From contig OX439052.1 of assembly GCA_949317995.1 (NCBI GenBank), positions 42,280,599-42,344,598 on the forward strand: a stretch of 64,000 bases of DNA, read 5' to 3'. Under the pieces are notes generated by a model. That model searched no databases and was not told the origin of the DNA. It saw only the letters and a program-made list of their open reading frames with translations. Positions 10,039 to 51,754 of the stretch are shown piece after piece. The stretch comes from Acholoe squamosa (taxonomy: Eukaryota > Annelida > Polychaeta > Phyllodocida > Polynoidae). The translations under genes and the position numbers were made by a program. Each line of letters begins with the position of its first letter. Positions within the stretch are counted from its first letter, which is position 1.

Positions 10039-12785
10039 TTTTTTTAAGGTTTGAAAATTAATTTTATTGTAAGACACAATTTAACAAAAGTGGATAATGA
10101 CAATAAAGGTGATTCCTCATCCAATTCATCTGTTACAAATCCAGTTATTTTCACATTATGACATATATGAATGTACATGATGAAATGAGGTCAAACAGCT
10201 AAAGAATATATGTATTATATACACAAAAACAAGACTACCATAGGACTTAATGGCCACACAACAGTGACACAGCGGATAACAGGGTAAAGCGGGCTCGAAC
10301 ACATGCTTCATTACATATTACATTTAGTATAGAGTACGAGAGTAAGACAATACAAGATTTGAAGTATGTAGTTATTAAGTGACTCCCGCAAATAAGCAGT
10401 AAAGATTGTCAATGGGTGTAGTCGTTAAAACAGCTCCCACAAACAATAACATTGCAGCACACGATAACCATACGACAACCATTACTAGATTTCCAAGATT
10501 AGGCAACATACTCAGTGTCCAGTAAGAGTAGTCATTACAACAGCTCCTACTTTACACAAGGGGGTAGTCATTACAACAGCTCCCTCAGTAAAACATATCA
10601 ATCATCCATGTTAACAGGATTCTTACTGACTTTAGTCAGGTCAGTTATGCCAGATAATCTCTTCTTAAATATAATCTTATCTTTACTGTGCTGATACCAG
10701 CTCCCTAAATTATTCCATAAGGTTATACCACGATGCATAGGTGATTCATTGTAACCATGATTTTGAGCAGTGTATTCTTTAAACTTTACATTGTTATCCG
10801 ATCTTAAACCAGGCCGCCTTGGTTCATTCTCTAGATATTCAGGATTCTTTGCAAGTTTAAACATGTAACACAGTAGCATTACCTCCCTTCTCCTCTTTAA
10901 AGTTGGTATATCCGCTAATTTATACATCTCAGCCTCAGACAAGTTCCTACCCCTAAATACAATCTTCAGACCTCTCAGTTGAAGCCGATCCAATTTTTTA
11001 AGACAGTCCTCATTTGCACCATCAAATACAAAACTAGCATAATCAAATAATGACATAATAGTAGTTTTATAGACAGTAAGAGCCACATTTTCAGTCAAAT
11101 TGTGCCTCAGTTTACTAAATCTGAACAGTCTATGGCTTACTTTAGAATTAAGATCCTTCAATGCACTATTAAAGCTCAAGGTCTTATCTATTTTTAGGCC
11201 TAGGTAACAATAGTTCTCAATCACCTCTAATTCAGTAGTACCAATTTTAAGTGAGTGTACTTTCATCCTCTTTAACTTATGACTATTACCATACCAGACC
11301 ACTTTGGACTTACCAATATTTATTGTCAATCTTTTTGATATAAACCAGGACAGTATACTATCTAAAGCACTCTGCATTTTTCCTTGGGCCCTGTCAGCAC
11401 TGCAACCAGAAGTTAGTAAAACTAGATCATCAGCATACATATAAAAAATCACAATTTTGTAGCACAGTACCAATATCATTTACAAAAAGAATAAACAACA
11501 GGGGTCCTAACACTGACCCTTGTGGGACTCCAAAACGAACTGGCATTACTTGCGATGTATAATTTCCCATTTTTGTAAATTGACTTCTTCCCGTTAAATA
11601 GCTCATTAACCAATTGAGGTTACAATCATCCAGTCTCAATTCCCCCAGAGTTTCAATAAGATATAAATGATGCACAGAGTCAAATGCCTTTCTAAGGTCG
11701 ATATAACTGGCACAAAATGTCCTCTATCTCTATTTTCATATAATTTGTTTAAAAAGGCAAATATAGCGTCTCCTGTTCTTAAACCTTGTCTGTAACCATA
11801 TTGACGTACTGACATTGTACCAGCTCTATTAGTAACATCTATTATATGACCATGCATAATTTTTTCAGCAATCTTTCCTGGCACCGGGAGAAGAGAGATA
11901 GGCCTCCAGTTTTTGATTAGTTTGTTGTTTCCATCCTTTGGAATAGGACGTACCCTAGCAATTTTCCAGATATCAGGAAAGATCCCTGAGTCAAAGCTTA
12001 ACTGATACAGCCAAGTCATTGGTGTTAAAAGAAATTTTAAAGCCGCCTTTAAAATATCACATCTGATGCCCATTATACCGGATGTTTTATGAACATTTAT
12101 CTCGTCAATGTAGATTGAAACAAGCTCCTTTTCAACTCTAAGCTTAGGTACCAATGCATCCTCTGGTTCCTTGAAAACAACACGTTCAGGATAACCTTTT
12201 ACAGTCATATCATTAGATAGCTGCTTACCAATACTGGAAAAATATGTATTCATGTAATCCACAGACTATATCATTACCATCAATCAATTCGGGTGGTTCA
12301 ACATCAACTTCAGGTTTCAATATACCATTCACAATTCTCCAAAATTTCTTTGGATTATTTTTACAATCCTCCAAGGCTAGCTTGCACTGATCTGCTTTCG
12401 AGTACTTTATAGCCCTATTGATTCTACAATGTAGAGACCTAGCTACAATTAGATAGTGTTCATCTCTAGACTTTAGAAACAAATCAACATTATTTTCTCT
12501 TTCATGAATAAGGCTCATTATTTCAGGCGTCATCCACCTATGCCGCCTGTCAACATATTCTACTCTCACCCATGGACAGTAGGTATTTAGGAAGTCTTCA
12601 ATATGTGCTTGAATCATCCTCCAGCCTTCTTCAGGATCAGAGCAGGAATAAAACGAGTCCCAATCAAGTTCACATAACCAATCTTTAAAAAGATTCTCAT
12701 TGAAATCCTTGTACCTACGTATATACATTATTTTCTTTGTATATGTAACTTTCATTTTACATTTGACACTAAATACAGGCAGGTG
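10039..12785 (-). mobile_element. 5'-truncated, poly(A)-tailed non-LTR retrotransposon
   Basis: A minus-strand non-LTR element of about 2.75 kb. Its 3' end is an A-run (8 T on the + strand at 10,038-10,045). Its 5' end stops inside the endonuclease domain at the Asp-His of the SDH motif (DHLPVF). The 3' untranslated region (10,046-10,597) holds diverged copies of GTAGTCATTACAACAGCTCC. It lies between the two copies of a 123-bp direct repeat. At the 5' junction the bases GATC could belong to either the element or the target. The tail type (poly A) differs from that of the intact element at 45.6-51.0 kb, so it belongs to another family. Confidence 0.85.
10598..12785 (-). pseudogene. reverse transcriptase ORF2 remnant with three frameshifts
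   Basis: This is the ORF2 remnant of the truncated element. It begins at DHLPVF, the end of the apurinic-type endonuclease, followed by a linker and then the reverse transcriptase. Visible motifs in order: NWRPISLLPVPGKIAEKI; RQYGYRQGLRTGDA; DLRKAFDSVHH, reached only after a frame change; FGVPQGSVLGPLLF; YADDLVLL with both catalytic Asp; LTINIGKSKVVWYG; and NYCYLGLKID. A C-terminal region follows and ends at 10,598. Three frame changes, near 12,250, 11,660 and 11,450, break the reading, so no full protein can be made. Motif spelling fits the CR1/jockey-like group. Confidence 0.85.
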
Positions 12786-12908
12786 ATCGCACTGATACCT
12801 GATGAGTTGTTATTCCATGCAAACTACATATCGAGTGGGATAAAAGGCATTTTTAATGCGTCTCTTCCTCCCCTCTGCGCATATTTTCACATAAATTACC
12901 TTGCTCAT
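12786..12908 (+). repeat. right copy of the 123-bp direct repeat
   Basis: Partner of 9,916-10,038. It starts exactly where the retrotransposon's truncated 5' end stops. After it the sequence is unrelated to the element (CTTTCCCCTCCCTTACC). Confidence 0.8.
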
Positions 12909-45876: not shown

Positions 45877-48702
45877 CTACATGAAACAAGTGGGATAGTC
45901 TGCGAGAATTTTCCTTTTAAATATCTTTGGACATACTATAGTGGTATATTCAATTTTGAGATCGTTCCATCTTTTAATAGCTTTGTAGTAAGACCCCCTT
46001 ATAACAAGTGGTTTCAATGAGTGTGGTAGTGTTAGCCTAATGCCCTGATTTCTCCGTGTAGGGAGGTTTCTATTATCTACTAGATCTTGAATACTTTTTA
46101 ATCTAAAAGCATATGCTAGAAGGTGTATATCTCTTCTGTCGATTAATTTTTTACATCCACTTTTTCCATGTAATTGGTCTGTTGTATACAGGGGGGATTC
46201 TTCAATCTTGACCTTATATACAGTTCTTAGGCCTTTGTTTTGTAAAAGCTGCAATTCCCTTGTTTCACCTCTGTAATCTCTATCCCAAACATAGTCAGCA
46301 TAATCCAGTAATGGTAGTACTAAGGTCTTATATATTATTAGGGCAGTGTCTTCATCGGTATACTTTCTAACTCTATACAAGTCATATAGTCTTTGCCTAA
46401 ACTTTTTACAAGTATTTTCTCTGTGGGTAGTAAACGTTAGACCAGTGTCAATTGTCACACCTAAGTAGGTAAATTCATGAACTTGTTCTATAACTGTGTT
46501 GTTTAAAGTAAAAACAGGTAGTGGATCATGTCTTTTCCTATTAAATACCATCCATTTTGTCTTTGCACAATTAATAGTAAGACTATTTTCAATACACCAT
46601 GTCGATATAAGTCTTAAGGCTTCATGCATTTTTCCACTCGATGTAACAGTTATTACAGCATCGTCAGCATAGAGGGATATTTTATAATCATACAAAGTGG
46701 CCAGGGGGTTAATATATATGGAGAAAAGTACAGGACCCAACACAGATCCCTGAGGAACACCATAGGTTATTGCTTTTTGTGCTGATAGCGTATTGTTAGC
46801 TAATACTTGTTGTGTTCTACCAGTCAAGTAATTTTTTAAGAACTCACATGTATTTTTACTAAGTCCAATTTTTTGAAGTTTAGAGTTCAAGAGTTCATGT
46901 GATATAGTGTCAAAAGCCTTTTTATAGTCTAGATATAGGCAGAAGCTTGGTTTATCATGTATCATATTATTTGTTATATCCATTAGGTGTTCATCAATGG
47001 CAGTCTGTGTAGAGTGTTCAGCTCTATAACCATGCTGATTTTTACTAAGTACACCATTAGTATTAATAAAATTATTCAATCTTTTACACACAATCTTTTC
47101 TAGAATTTTCCCAGGAAGAGGTAAGAGACTAATGGGACGTAGGTCATTTACATCATTAGAGTTTGGTTTTTTATGTAGTGGTTTTACCGTAGCCGCTTTC
47201 CATAAGTCAGGGAACTTCATTTCCTCAAGGCATTTATTATAAAGGCACTGAAAAACCTCAGGTATGGACATGATACAGTCTTTGAGCACATAAGTTTTTA
47301 AATGGGAAATAGATGAAGGCTTGTCTATTTTAATACCTTTTATAATCTTGATTAATTCTATGTGCGACACAGGGTACAATAAATCTCCCCCTTGGGCTGT
47401 CTCATGTCGTGGGGGTCTATAACCTTGGTTCACATTGACCTTTGGTAGAGCGTCAGCTAATTTTTCACCAATGGTTGAAAAGAAATTATTTATATAATCT
47501 GCACAGTTAGAAGGAGGTATTATCATACCTGTATCCGAGTTCCTAAGTTTTATTAAAGTGGCATTGGTCTTATTTGGAACAATTTTTCTTATTGCCTGCC
47601 AGAAAGATCGAGGGTCATCACCTTTAGTTGCAATAAGCTCTTTAATTTTATCTTTTCTATTATTAAAAATAATTGTTTCGACTCTGTTCCTATGAAAATT
47701 TGAAATTCTCCAATCATCAATGTCACCTGTTTGTCTGGCATGTTTATATAGTTCATCTCTAACTCTCATAGCCTCTATTACATTAGGTGTCATCCATTCT
47801 GGAGTAAACTCAGGCAAGGTTAATTTTTTCACCGGGCACATTTTGTCCAAATTTGATAAAATAACTTTCAGTATTTCACCCCACATGATATTAGGATTGG
47901 GTATATTTATTATTGTGTCCCAATTATAATTATTAAGTGCATTTTTCAATGTAAGGAAGTCATAGTTCTTATAGCTACGAGCTTTGACTTTTTTCGTTGG
48001 AATTTTAGTTCTTTCGCATTTAATGACCATATAGATAGGAGTGTGATCTGATATGTGAAAATTAACCAGGCCCGAGTCATTAACATTATGTACATTTGTA
48101 TAGAAATGATCCAATAAAGTACCCGATTGTGGTCTTGTGGGCTGTTTTATCAGCTGAAATAGTTCATTGTCAGTACAGAAGGTATTCACCATAGAGTCAT
48201 CGATGTCTTTCTGATGTAGCAAATTAACATTGAAGTCACCCATATAGATCAGCTTTCTATTTCTAGTGATATTTGTTTTGAGTGTTGTAAGCTTGTTGTA
48301 AATAGCCCCTTTATCAACATCATCGTCAGGAGGCCTATAACAGACATAAATCTTATATTTTATAACACCAATCTCAATATCAACACATAATAATTCATAG
48401 TCTTTTGTTATAACAGAACCTTCCTTGTCAAGTGAGGCTGTGTAGTGATCCCTTATATAAAGCAGTAGACCACCAGCTTTTTTATTCCGGTTAGGATATC
48501 TATCAAGCCTGAAGAACTGATAACCAGGAATTTCCAGGTCAATGTTTTTCCTTCCAGGGTGTAGCCATGTTTCTACAATACCAGCAATATCAACTGACTT
48601 GACTAAGGTGGTAGCATTTACCATTTTATCAAAAATGGATCTCGCATTAAAGCACATTATCAGTAGACCTTTTTTATTTGTTAATTCATGTAACCAGACC
48701 AT
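45877..48702 (-). CDS. retrotransposon ORF2: endonuclease and reverse transcriptase
   Basis: This 941-aa protein nicks target DNA and copies the element's RNA at the nick. The N-terminal exonuclease/endonuclease/phosphatase domain (about 12-228) shows FNARS (Asn19), VETWLH (Glu44), YRPP (122-125), GDFNVN (155-160, Asp156/Asn158) and SDHTP (218-222). The reverse transcriptase (about 500-760) shows LRPISLLPLPGKILEKIV, NQHGYR, LDYKKAFD with catalytic Asp592, YGVPQGSVLGP (647-657) and YADD (678-681, Asp680 and Asp681), then LTINCAKTKWMVF and TYLGVTID. A C-terminal tail follows; no CCHC zinc knuckle or RNase H domain is evident. All catalytic residues are present and the frame is intact. The start chosen places the endonuclease core at the usual distance from the N-terminus. 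It is separated from ORF1, so translation would need reinitiation or another route. Confidence 0.93.
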   Translation of the reverse strand: MVWLHELTNKKGLLIMCFNARSIFDKMVNATTLVKSVDIAGIVETWLHPGRKNIDLEIPGYQFFRLDRYPNRNKKAGGLLLYIRDHYTASLDKEGSVITKDYELLCVDIEIGVIKYKIYVCYRPPDDDVDKGAIYNKLTTLKTNITRNRKLIYMGDFNVNLLHQKDIDDSMVNTFCTDNELFQLIKQPTRPQSGTLLDHFYTNVHNVNDSGLVNFHISDHTPIYMVIKCERTKIPTKKVKARSYKNYDFLTLKNALNNYNWDTIINIPNPNIMWGEILKVILSNLDKMCPVKKLTLPEFTPEWMTPNVIEAMRVRDELYKHARQTGDIDDWRISNFHRNRVETIIFNNRKDKIKELIATKGDDPRSFWQAIRKIVPNKTNATLIKLRNSDTGMIIPPSNCADYINNFFSTIGEKLADALPKVNVNQGYRPPRHETAQGGDLLYPVSHIELIKIIKGIKIDKPSSISHLKTYVLKDCIMSIPEVFQCLYNKCLEEMKFPDLWKAATVKPLHKKPNSNDVNDLRPISLLPLPGKILEKIVCKRLNNFINTNGVLSKNQHGYRAEHSTQTAIDEHLMDITNNMIHDKPSFCLYLDYKKAFDTISHELLNSKLQKIGLSKNTCEFLKNYLTGRTQQVLANNTLSAQKAITYGVPQGSVLGPVLFSIYINPLATLYDYKISLYADDAVITVTSSGKMHEALRLISTWCIENSLTINCAKTKWMVFNRKRHDPLPVFTLNNTVIEQVHEFTYLGVTIDTGLTFTTHRENTCKKFRQRLYDLYRVRKYTDEDTALIIYKTLVLPLLDYADYVWDRDYRGETRELQLLQNKGLRTVYKVKIEESPLYTTDQLHGKSGCKKLIDRRDIHLLAYAFRLKSIQDLVDNRNLPTRRNQGIRLTLPHSLKPLVIRGSYYKAIKRWNDLKIEYTTIVCPKIFKRKILADYPTCFM

Positions 48703-49248
48703 GTGTATAGTAACCAGAATTAATTTTCATGAGGTGATAGGAGATGATATCAAGTATGAAGATGATCGCTGTATGACATATAAGGCTCTCTTGTGGTATG
48801 GCTAGAAAAGTTTTTTCGGGAACGCACCCCGAAGTTGTTGTATACAGACCAATAGGCACAGTTTTAGCTATGTATATTATGCTGATATATATATGGTGTT
48901 TAGTGAATCTTTAGCGTATTATTACAGTCAATGATATAGAAAGAAGATAGGTATAGTAGTATAGAAGGAACATATATACAAGTGTTAGAGCTGCTACTAT
49001 TCTGTGTCACTGGGTTAAAACAATCAAGTCCTGACCGTCGACCTGTTAGCTCCACTTGAGCTTATACCATATTAAGGTTATGTAATGTCATGTACATTTC
49101 AAAGTCAGCTGTGTGGAGACTGGTTGGCGAGGTTCAATGTAAAGGAGATATCTTAACATATTTAGTAGCCAGATCTTATGTTACTATGGCAAGCAGGTAA
49201 AGCTGAATAAAGTGTGGTACATAGTGTATAAATTTCATCTCATAGCGT
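48703..49248 (-). other. gap between ORF1 and ORF2
   Basis: There are 546 nt without a long minus-strand frame. It is unusually long for the inter-ORF region of such an element. It may house an internal promoter or a structure for ORF2 translation; I see no specific motif. Confidence 0.5.
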
Positions 49249-50916
49249 TCACTTTTTATGGGTCAGGACTTTTAGATGTCCTAGAAATTTGGATTGAAAA
49301 TGTTCAGTCTCTGGTTTTAGTACCGGTTTCTGCTTGGGTTTTTCTTTTTCTTTCACTTTCTTCTTCATAGCCATTTGTAGTGGTGATATTGGTGTTGATG
49401 GAGTCATGGTAGGTGTTGTCATAGGAGCTTGTAAGGGTGTGCTGGGCATTGTAGCTGTGATAAGTCCTGTTGCCATGGGGCTTGATACTACTGATACCAC
49501 TGGTGTAGAAGGTGCTATCAGTGGTGGCGGTTGAGGTGCTTGTCTCCTGGGTGATAAGACTATGGGAGGGGGTATGGTGTCAACAGGAGCTGCTACTGTT
49601 GCAGTCGTGCCAGCATGTGAGTTGACTGTAAGGGTCGATGCGGTTTGTGAGGTGGGTATATTATAGCGCTCTCTCATTGTTTTTCTAACCTTCATGAGGA
49701 TTTTTCCACCCATATTTTTGCCCCTGTATGTTCCATTGGCTAAGGTTTTAGAGTTCAAGCCTACCCCAGCCCCCCAGTGGGTGCATGGGGTGGCCTCTAT
49801 CAGCTTCCTGTCTGAGCTATTCAGGAGCATCTCCCGTAGATCTGTATTCTGCTCATACTTCATTTCATTGAGTTCTTCAACTAGTGCCTCGTCATGATTT
49901 TTCCAAGCAGGACATATAACCTTTTTTGCTATATTTTTTGCACCTATAGCTGTGTAACAGTCTTTGATTTTTTGTGCCCTTACGCGGTCACCTGCATAGT
50001 CAGCCTTTTTGAAACAGAGGGCCTGCTCTACTGATGAAAACATGTAGCCGTCAACCAGGATTTTACATGGAAAGAAGTTGCTAAATGGTGCATGCTCTGA
50101 TTGATAGGCAATATAATCATCGCCTATAACAGTCTTAGCATTGGTTAATTGGATGTCAGGGGGTAGGTCCTTAAGGCAGTCATGTCTATAGAATTTTCCA
50201 TTGTACAATATACCTCTCCCCCGTGCTTTGGCATCAATGCCCGCTTCCGACGCAAGCCTAGCAACTGTTACTACATCGGACCTTTGCTTTTTTAGAAGTT
50301 GATTACCATCTTCAGAAATGAAAACCTTGGTGTATATTGGTATTTTCAACAGCTCACTTTTTAGGCCTAGTATCTTGTCCCGACTAGAACACTTTGTGAA
50401 GACAGCTATAATATTCCTATTTGTTGACATAGGCGTGCCCTGTCTGTAGGCGATGTCAATTTCAAAGTAGTCGAAACTTGGGTCAATGGCAGATAGGAGT
50501 GCATACACTTTCTGTTTAGTGTCTTCACCTTGTACAAAAGGGAGGCCTTCAATTATAATATTTTTGCGTTTTTGAACGTTGTCAAGTATGCTTATTTCCT
50601 CCCTATGATCTCTAATTTCTCCCACGTTGACACGCACTTGCCGCTCTGTACTGTCAAGCTTGCCGTCAATGGCTGTCACAGTGTTATTTATTTTGACAGC
50701 GTTCGCTTGCAAATTCACAACATCAGTCTGCGTAAACTCCAGAGAGGATTTGTACTCACTTAATGTCTGCTCAACTGATTCCTTGTTAGCCATTAAAAAT
50801 TTTAGAGCAACTCCTATCCTTTGCAGGTTTGGGTCTAGTCCTCCTCTGGTCTTGCTGCTTATCAGGTCACCTACAGCTCTTTCTGCTTCATCCGCAGTCG
50901 GTATACTATCCGCCAT
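49249..50916 (-). CDS. retrotransposon ORF1 with coiled coil, RRM-like region and NADAR domain
   Basis: This 555-aa protein has five visible parts. Residues 40-115 are a likely coiled coil. Residues 117-255 resemble the RRM plus C-terminal region of transposase-22/L1-like ORF1 proteins: KRKNIIIEGLPF at 116-127, AYRQG at 156-160, NRNIIAVFTKCSSRDKIL at 167-184, GRGILYNGKFYR at 233-244. Residues about 269-415 are a NADAR (YbiA/COG3236) domain: FSNFFPC (278-284), SSVEQALCFKKA with Glu297, LIEAT with Glu374, HWGAGVG with Trp381 and GKNMGGKILMKVR with Asn401. These are the positions usually conserved in active NADAR enzymes. Residues 425-515 are Pro/Thr-rich, and the tail (516-555) is basic. NADAR proteins hydrolyse N-glycosidic bonds (riboflavin intermediates for YbiA; ADP-ribosyl-guanine in DNA for DarT1-linked NADAR). 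In ORF1 the domain should ride with the element's RNA-protein particle. Its activity is inferred, not shown. Confidence 0.88.
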   Translation of the reverse strand: MADSIPTADEAERAVGDLISSKTRGGLDPNLQRIGVALKFLMANKESVEQTLSEYKSSLEFTQTDVVNLQANAVKINNTVTAIDGKLDSTERQVRVNVGEIRDHREEISILDNVQKRKNIIIEGLPFVQGEDTKQKVYALLSAIDPSFDYFEIDIAYRQGTPMSTNRNIIAVFTKCSSRDKILGLKSELLKIPIYTKVFISEDGNQLLKKQRSDVVTVARLASEAGIDAKARGRGILYNGKFYRHDCLKDLPPDIQLTNAKTVIGDDYIAYQSEHAPFSNFFPCKILVDGYMFSSVEQALCFKKADYAGDRVRAQKIKDCYTAIGAKNIAKKVICPAWKNHDEALVEELNEMKYEQNTDLREMLLNSSDRKLIEATPCTHWGAGVGLNSKTLANGTYRGKNMGGKILMKVRKTMRERYNIPTSQTASTLTVNSHAGTTATVAAPVDTIPPPIVLSPRRQAPQPPPLIAPSTPVVSVVSSPMATGLITATMPSTPLQAPMTTPTMTPSTPISPLQMAMKKKVKEKEKPKQKPVLKPETEHFQSKFLGHLKVLTHKK

Positions 50917-50921
50917 CTTGG
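50910..50921 (-). promoter_or_regulatory. YY1-type site over the ORF1 start
   Basis: The minus strand reads CCAAGATGGCGG, combining the ORF1 ATG with a match to the YY1 core AAGATGGCGGC. A YY1 site near the 5' end is known to set transcription start in human L1. Here it lies about 60-70 nt from the inferred 5' end. Confidence 0.45.
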
Positions 50922-51754
50922 AATCTCTACCGTGTCAGATTTTCCCGGCGATGTATTATTTGTCAAAAATATCATGTTCTGCCTTTGTCCCTAACATCAA
51001 AACTTACCACCTTCAGAACACAAGGAGATTACCATATATCACAAATGTTAAGAACATATTCACTAATTACCAAACATTCCCTCATTTCCAAAAGGGTATG
51101 AGCAAGGATCTATTGAAGCTTCTTGGTGAGAGGCCCCAATAATCTTAATGAGGCCAATGTTCATGCCTTATCATTACCATTCCAATGAAAAGTGTTCCTT
51201 TTCATCACTAGCCTGGTGCTTCCTACATTCCATACTTAGCACATTGACCTGTATAAGCGCCTGGGTACTCATTAATTTCAAGTTGGGTTTACCCCCCGCC
51301 CTTATTCAAGACTCAAATTATAGTGGATTTTCTAATTTCAAAACCCCTTATTCAGGACCGGCACGTATTCAAATACCCAGCCCCTATATAATTGTTTTAT
51401 CAGTTTGATACACTAGGGGCTACTCACCCACCCAGCCCCTGTGGTCCCATAGGCCTATTGAGGGGGCAGAAACACCTCTCACAATTATACTGTTTTGAAA
51501 ATGAAAAACGATTCCAAGAGGTTAGAAATCAGAGATATCCAGAGAGAAAGAGGGTATCTAGGTACCCCATCGATATTGGATTGAAAAATCGAGCCAAACA
51601 CCTTCTGTAGCATTTCAAATCTTGAGGTAAACTCTGCAGTGAGTAAGAGAGAACTCACAATGCCCCTGTAGCAGGAGCAGTTTGGCCTGGTCTACACTAA
51701 CGCCATCTGCTGTATATCCTTGATAAAACTTTCGTATACAGGCCAATACGGTAT

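Follow-up and report, generated by a model that had tools for sequence, protein, structure and literature searches.

NADAR domains in retroelements and in other settings

The closest described counterparts of the element studied here are Tx1 LINEs of the oyster Crassostrea gigas, for which a YbiA-family NADAR domain in ORF1 was briefly reported in 2025, together with the proposal that it plays a part in the processing of RNA intermediates (PMC12477816). The accessible part of that report deals with these ORF1s in a single sentence plus a supplementary figure, with no analysis of selection, fold or active site (PMC12477816). The LINE described below likewise carries a YbiA-family NADAR in its ORF1, but unlike that of the oyster elements its ORF2 is not L1/Tx1-like. 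A captured and conserved NADAR domain is also found in a retroelement of Ectocarpus, which is an LTR element of another eukaryotic lineage with the domain in Pol and not in an RNA-binding ORF1. With this element our LINE shares a NADAR domain that lies inside an element protein and is conserved among copies. A literature search yielded no further papers on NADAR or YbiA in retrotransposons among the matches listed. A survey of 448 Jockey-superfamily ORF1s describes these proteins as modular and evolving reticulately, and a term search of its main text did not find NADAR (PMC4120745).

Outside retroelements, NADARs strip ADP-ribose from guanine, an activity reported to be conserved in eukaryotic members, and a Phytophthora NADAR was found to bind ADP-ribose in an equivalent pocket (PMC11543638). 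Polyproteins of animal RNA viruses contain NADAR domains as well (PMC9503650), which agrees with our fold matches in BFVD, and for the NADARs of DNA viruses and phages it has been argued that soluble derivatives of ADP-ribose are the target (PMC9503650). In nematodes, the trans-splicing protein SNA-3 requires its NADAR domains, the substrate of which is given as unknown in the accessible text (PMC9303266). The fusion architecture is already known in outline; our additions appear to be its occurrence in non-L1 groups and the evidence on selection, fold and active site.

The LINE copy and the architecture of its ORF1

The window, meaning the whole 64-kb stretch of DNA that was analysed, contains one copy of the element, with the following parts (window positions):

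45582..50974 (-): LINE copy, 5.39 kb, ends set by comparison with seven other copies (L021-L027)
50917..50974 (-): 5′ UTR remnant, 58 bp (217-224 bp in L021-L027), from the copy comparison
49249..50916 (-): ORF1, open frame of 555 aa
50569..50730 (-): ORF1 coiled-coil region, about residues 63-116, from the model and a fold match
50317..50568 (-): ORF1 RRM-like domain, about residues 117-200, from the model and Foldseek matches to L1 ORF1p and RRMs
50131..50316 (-): ORF1 CTD-like domain, about residues 201-262, from the model and Foldseek matches to the L1 ORF1p RRM-CTD
49669..50118 (-): ORF1 NADAR domain, about residues 267-416, from Pfam (273-415), the model and the fold search
49252..49668 (-): C-terminal tail of ORF1 (residues 417-555), rich in Pro/Thr and, at its end, in Lys; little conserved
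45877..48702 (-): ORF2, open frame of 941 aa with endonuclease (residues 26-220) and reverse transcriptase (512-751) by Pfam
45582..45876 (-): 3′ UTR with short ACTCAAA repeats at its end, from the copy comparison

Both ORFs are open, the endonuclease (E=2.7e-7) and reverse transcriptase (E=1e-39) of ORF2 are recognized by Pfam, and copies are dispersed in the genome, as is typical of a LINE. The original prediction had called the element intact, which holds for its two reading frames; compared with L021-L027, its 5′ UTR is shorter by about 160 bp, so that the copy is not full length. An exact common stretch of at least 7 bp, as a target-site duplication would give, was not found in about 30 bp on each side of eight copies (window and L021-L027). 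Over 2.2 kb, L021 and the window copy share 99.8% identity, which points to recent movement. With 43 bits to L1 ORF2p and 48 bits to R2, ORF2 is not L1-like and does not belong to the Tx1/L1 group. The window LINE is a recently active element outside the L1 group.

Some other features of the window may be mentioned here. A second, decayed LINE ORF2 lies at 10598-12788 (-), pieces of which are 23-41% identical to the ORF2 described above, and no second ORF1 match was obtained within the 64 kb. Two fragments of a eukaryotic large-subunit rRNA (Rfam RF02543; 384 and 182 bits) are found at 43145-43627 and 43706-43930 (-), about 1.7 kb from the 3′ end of the LINE, and are the sole above-threshold Rfam matches in the window; together with the LINEs they identify the DNA as eukaryotic. 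Minisatellite arrays occupy 38656-39211 (units of 35/71/106/141 bp; rich in TGATCACTCA) and 39655-40294 (83 bp).

The original prediction had placed a NADAR domain in ORF1 behind a coiled coil and an RRM-like region, had proposed a profile search and structure prediction against known NADARs as checks, and was to be given up if no NADAR match or fold was found or if the domain was absent from all other copies. The profile search yielded a PF08719 (NADAR) match at residues 273-415 with 85.6 bits, above the curated cut-off of 35.1 (E=6e-24), and a predicted model combined with a fold search assigned the domain a YbiA-like fold. Among NCBIfam models, the best was that of a riboflavin-intermediate N-glycosidase. 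For the front half of ORF1, the predicted coiled-coil region consists of two helices, the first one long, and Foldseek matched the front to the human L1 ORF1p trimer (5.7e-7); the model of the whole ORF1 is modest in confidence (pLDDT 61.7). By Foldseek on this model, the coiled coil, the single RRM and the CTD of Type II (L1-type) LINE ORF1s are all present, the first two in line with what had been predicted for the region ahead of the NADAR domain. The coiled coil-RRM-CTD fold is common to human L1 ORF1p (PDB 2ykp, 2yko), although no sequence match between the two proteins was among the matches listed, and human L1 ORF1p is not known to have a NADAR. The window ORF1 is thus predicted to have the fold of the trimer-forming RNA-binding protein of L1, extended after the CTD by a NADAR domain of the YbiA type.

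Conservation, selection and the ligand pocket

An ORF1 search of the genome (assembly of 1.48 Gb in 63 contigs), in which 78 of 5,558 first-look candidates were scored, gave at least 86 matches, among them full-length copies with 86-100% identity and a large set at 40-45%. At all 20 ORF1 places that were fetched (9.5 kb each), ORF2 or part of it lies downstream on the same strand, in several cases with frameshifts or deletions. Twenty ORF1s were aligned, those of the window and of L022-L040; L021 was excluded due to a stop within its ORF1. Searches with ORF1, ORF2 and the ORF1 alignment yielded no relatives among the viral records (viral_contigs).

Retention of the domain was examined in a manner blind to NADAR, using the RRM-CTD part only as query (1,937 candidates, 150 scored). 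Read from the table by eye, 57 open frames of at least 540 aa had no stop in the match, and two further frames of this length with a stop inside the match were excluded. NADAR follows directly behind the RRM-CTD in 57 out of 57 frames (46 recognized by ORF1 matches past residue 419, 7 by further search and 4 by fetched sequence and Pfam), a count to be read with the length cut in mind, since an ORF1 without NADAR would be about 400 aa long and the cut therefore favours carriers. For the shorter frames of 380-539 aa, some of which contain stops, NADAR or part of it is adjacent in at least 21 of 29. Absence from all other copies was accordingly not what was found.

Estimates of dN/dS (NG86) were obtained for 20 hand-chosen, non-independent pairs of intact ORF1s, eight of which had saturated dS in NADAR and were excluded from the ranges. 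The remaining 12 pairs with finite dS gave 0.01-0.06 for the NADAR domain and 0.18-0.48 for the C-terminal tail, and 11 of them gave a finite value for the RRM (0.00-0.21). Summed over four pairs without a copy in common (window-L023, L024-L025, L030-L034 and L036-L038), the changes in NADAR amount to 8 non-synonymous and 92 synonymous ones. Invariant positions among the 20 ORF1s number 39 of 150 in NADAR, 21 of 90 in the RRM and 23 of 66 in the CTD, with 0 of 110 in the N-terminal part (where one row starts late) and 0 of 139 in the tail. These sequence comparisons indicate strong purifying selection on the NADAR domain. The idea that the domain is a chance-captured passenger, dispensable for movement, is contradicted by the low dN/dS in all 12 pairs as well as by the presence of NADAR in all 57 long frames and in five ORF1 lineages (see below), and we regard it as very improbable. 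Selection shows the domain to be of importance, whatever its role.

With respect to the ligand pocket, the ADP-ribose contacts of the Phytophthora nicotianae NADAR 8bau (PMC11543638) were mapped by hand via a profile alignment, leaving out Y84 and D86, for which there was no confident position, and two backbone contacts. Residues E43, K50, K75, R79, W89, E125 and W133 of 8bau correspond to E297, K304, K327, K331, W338, E374 and W381 of the window ORF1, all seven of which are invariant in the 20 aligned ORF1s, K331 being a Lys at the place of an Arg. Included are the catalytic Glu and Lys seven residues apart as well as the YbiA-type Glu and the Trp (E297, K304, E374, W381; 20/20). Seven of nine mapped contact positions are invariant vs 39 of 150 NADAR positions overall (hypergeometric p=0.0012), and the enrichment persists with Y84 and D86 counted as lost (p=0.007). 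Two positions differ: the place of R93 is taken by Asp (12/20) or Glu (8/20), and the Asp three residues before the Trp (D130 in 8bau) is replaced by Cys in 8 and Ser in 12 ORF1s. On account of the change at D130, the description of the domain as complete-looking was slightly too strong. D130 is described as making a water-mediated ligand contact (PMC11543638); in the literature consulted it is not a defining feature of the superfamily, so that the assignment to NADAR is kept despite the Cys or Ser.

Judged by its residues, the window family is a YbiA-type NADAR with an altered residue beside the catalytic centre. Compared with 8bau and E. coli YbiA (2b3w), it differs at D130 (Cys/Ser), R93 (Asp/Glu) and R79 (Lys) and in its location within a retrotransposon protein. 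NADAR antitoxins linked to DarT1 have the fold superfamily and the catalytic Glu and Lys in common with it, whereas they carry a DarT1-type Asp where the window has the YbiA-type Glu (PMC11543638). With D130 replaced and the R93 contact lost, the substrate may be somewhat different from that of the characterized NADARs.

Candidate partners, possible roles and further NADAR lineages

In a search for a partner enzyme, the genome was read exon by exon for DarT (PF14487), which gave no match; the control rang in 1 of 14 genomes. DarT is neither linked to the element nor detected elsewhere in this search, as it would be in a DarT1-NADAR toxin-antitoxin pair. The Scabin/pierisin-like family PF22596 likewise had no match in the genome, but the control genomes were silent too, so that this is not evidence of absence. 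Clams possess guanine ADP-ribosylating activity and CARP-1-type guanine ADP-ribosyltransferases (PMC11209040); the idea of such an opponent is unsupported here, given that neither DarT nor a Scabin-like protein was matched. PARP1 is found in complexes of human L1 (PMC5821459), and according to a review PARP1 and PARP2 accumulate in human cells at the nick where L1 integrates and promote its retrotransposition (PMC8535693). This implies that ADP-ribosylation need not be hostile. The original observation is confirmed and the interpretation given to it partly supported: a true NADAR domain that is retained, under purifying selection and in possession of most of the ADP-ribose pocket stands, enzymatic activity, substrate and anti-defence role are hypothetical, and a DarT partner was not matched in the genome.

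Trimers of human L1 ORF1p coat the element RNA. If the ORF1p of the window LINE behaves likewise, many NADAR domains would be placed beside the RNA, the cDNA and the integration complex, where they might hydrolyse, or at least bind, ADP-ribose on element RNA, cDNA or nearby RNP proteins. Host ADP-ribosylation would thereby be kept from blocking packaging, reverse transcription or integration. We favour this reading, at a probability of roughly 0.45, and offer the anti-defence role it entails as a hypothesis, in view of the assistance that PARP1 and PARP2 are reported to give to human L1 and of the missing DarT and Scabin-like matches (the latter with a silent control).

The same human data, along with the fact that most ligand-contact positions are kept while the place of D130 is changed in 20 of 20 ORF1s, would also suit a non-catalytic reader. 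Such a domain would bind ADP-ribose, whether free, attached to RNA or carried by PARP-modified proteins at nicked chromatin, and guide the RNP to integration sites. Within the family, however, the active-site Lys and Trp and both glutamates do not vary, which is more than a binder seems to need, and we consider such a reader unlikely. Of similarly low probability is a repurposed nucleic-acid- or protein-binding module with no ADP-ribose role, comparable to the extra RRMs or zinc knuckles of other ORF1s: the modularity and reticulate evolution of Jockey-superfamily ORF1s (PMC4120745) and the need of SNA-3 for NADAR domains whose substrate is given as unknown (PMC9303266) are in accordance with it, while the conservation enriched at ADP-ribose contacts (7/9 vs 39/150) speaks against it.

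A PF08719 search of the genome yielded 3,224 first-look candidates, and all 150 that were scored exceed the cut-off. The two top scores among these best 150 belong to L041 (184 bits) and L042 (169 bits), open frames of their own outside the LINE set, which are 64% identical to each other, have the D130-type Asp and have bacterial YbiA-like relatives up to 60% identical. From about 1 kb around each, they are likely separate genes. Their existence bears on the possibility that the ORF1 domain acts on small NAD-derived molecules, in damage control or signal removal comparable to YbiA in riboflavin metabolism, with an indirect benefit to the element or the host germ cell. The riboflavin-intermediate N-glycosidase model and the soluble derivatives proposed for viral and phage NADARs (PMC9503650) would fit; against it, the genome has the two gene-like NADAR frames in addition, and in the 20 aligned ORF1s the domain is fused behind an L1-type RNA-binding front, so that it should be localized to RNA. 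We hold this to be quite improbable.

Four further loci (L043-L046), picked by frame length, have NADAR frames upstream of LINE ORF2 sequence on the same strand, which brings the ORF1 lineages with NADAR to at least five, paired with L1-like as well as non-L1 ORF2s. L044 has an L1-like ORF2 with 230 bits to human L1 against 70 to R2, in contrast to that of the window, and the ORF2 of L043 is intermediate (97 and 71 bits); L045 has the ORF2 nearest of the four to that of the window (31% over nearly the whole length). All four lineages keep both active-site glutamates, and three of four have the Asp at the place of D130 (His in L045), which again argues against a mere reader; L044, however, has Arg for the catalytic Lys and L046 Phe for the Trp. 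In a tree of 34 NADAR domains (16 of 65 bacterial loci, 6 phage loci, 10 LINE domains, L041 and L042), L041 and L042 group with bacteria and L044 stands apart from the remaining LINE domains. The data do not reject a single clade of LINE NADARs (p-AU 0.173), and long branches come together in this tree; the pattern may reflect either one capture with exchange of ORF1s or several captures.

The occurrence in LINE groups with differing ORF2s suggests a general pressure. This would extend the favoured reading to the view that the LINE RNPs of this lineage have used NADAR repeatedly, as one of their standard modules, and that host ADP-ribosylation of retroelement RNA or cDNA is a general, so far unseen animal defence against transposons which the ORF1 domain counters; we consider this broader view conceivable, though doubtful. 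What ORF1 domains do beyond RNA binding is little understood. A NADAR that is under selection, largely keeps its pocket and is fused to the RNP protein of LINEs both young and abundant provides a way to ask whether cells ADP-ribosylate the nucleic acid of transposons. The ORF1 NADARs are also a natural collection of domains with a changed active site, in which substrates can be studied.

Two of the further loci contain additional coding sequence. Between ORF1 and ORF2 of L046 lies a 240-aa open frame (L046 2302-3021, +), which matched NarE with 19.7 bits (threshold 27) and nothing in NCBIfam; a toxin-antitoxin pair inside this element was considered and set aside, the sub-threshold match being probably due to chance. 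The 757-aa ORF1 of L043 runs about 200 aa beyond NADAR (L043 1754-2344, +), and this part, for which Pfam and NCBIfam gave no SGNH-type esterase match, resembles by eye the SGNH-type esterase of other LINE ORF1s.
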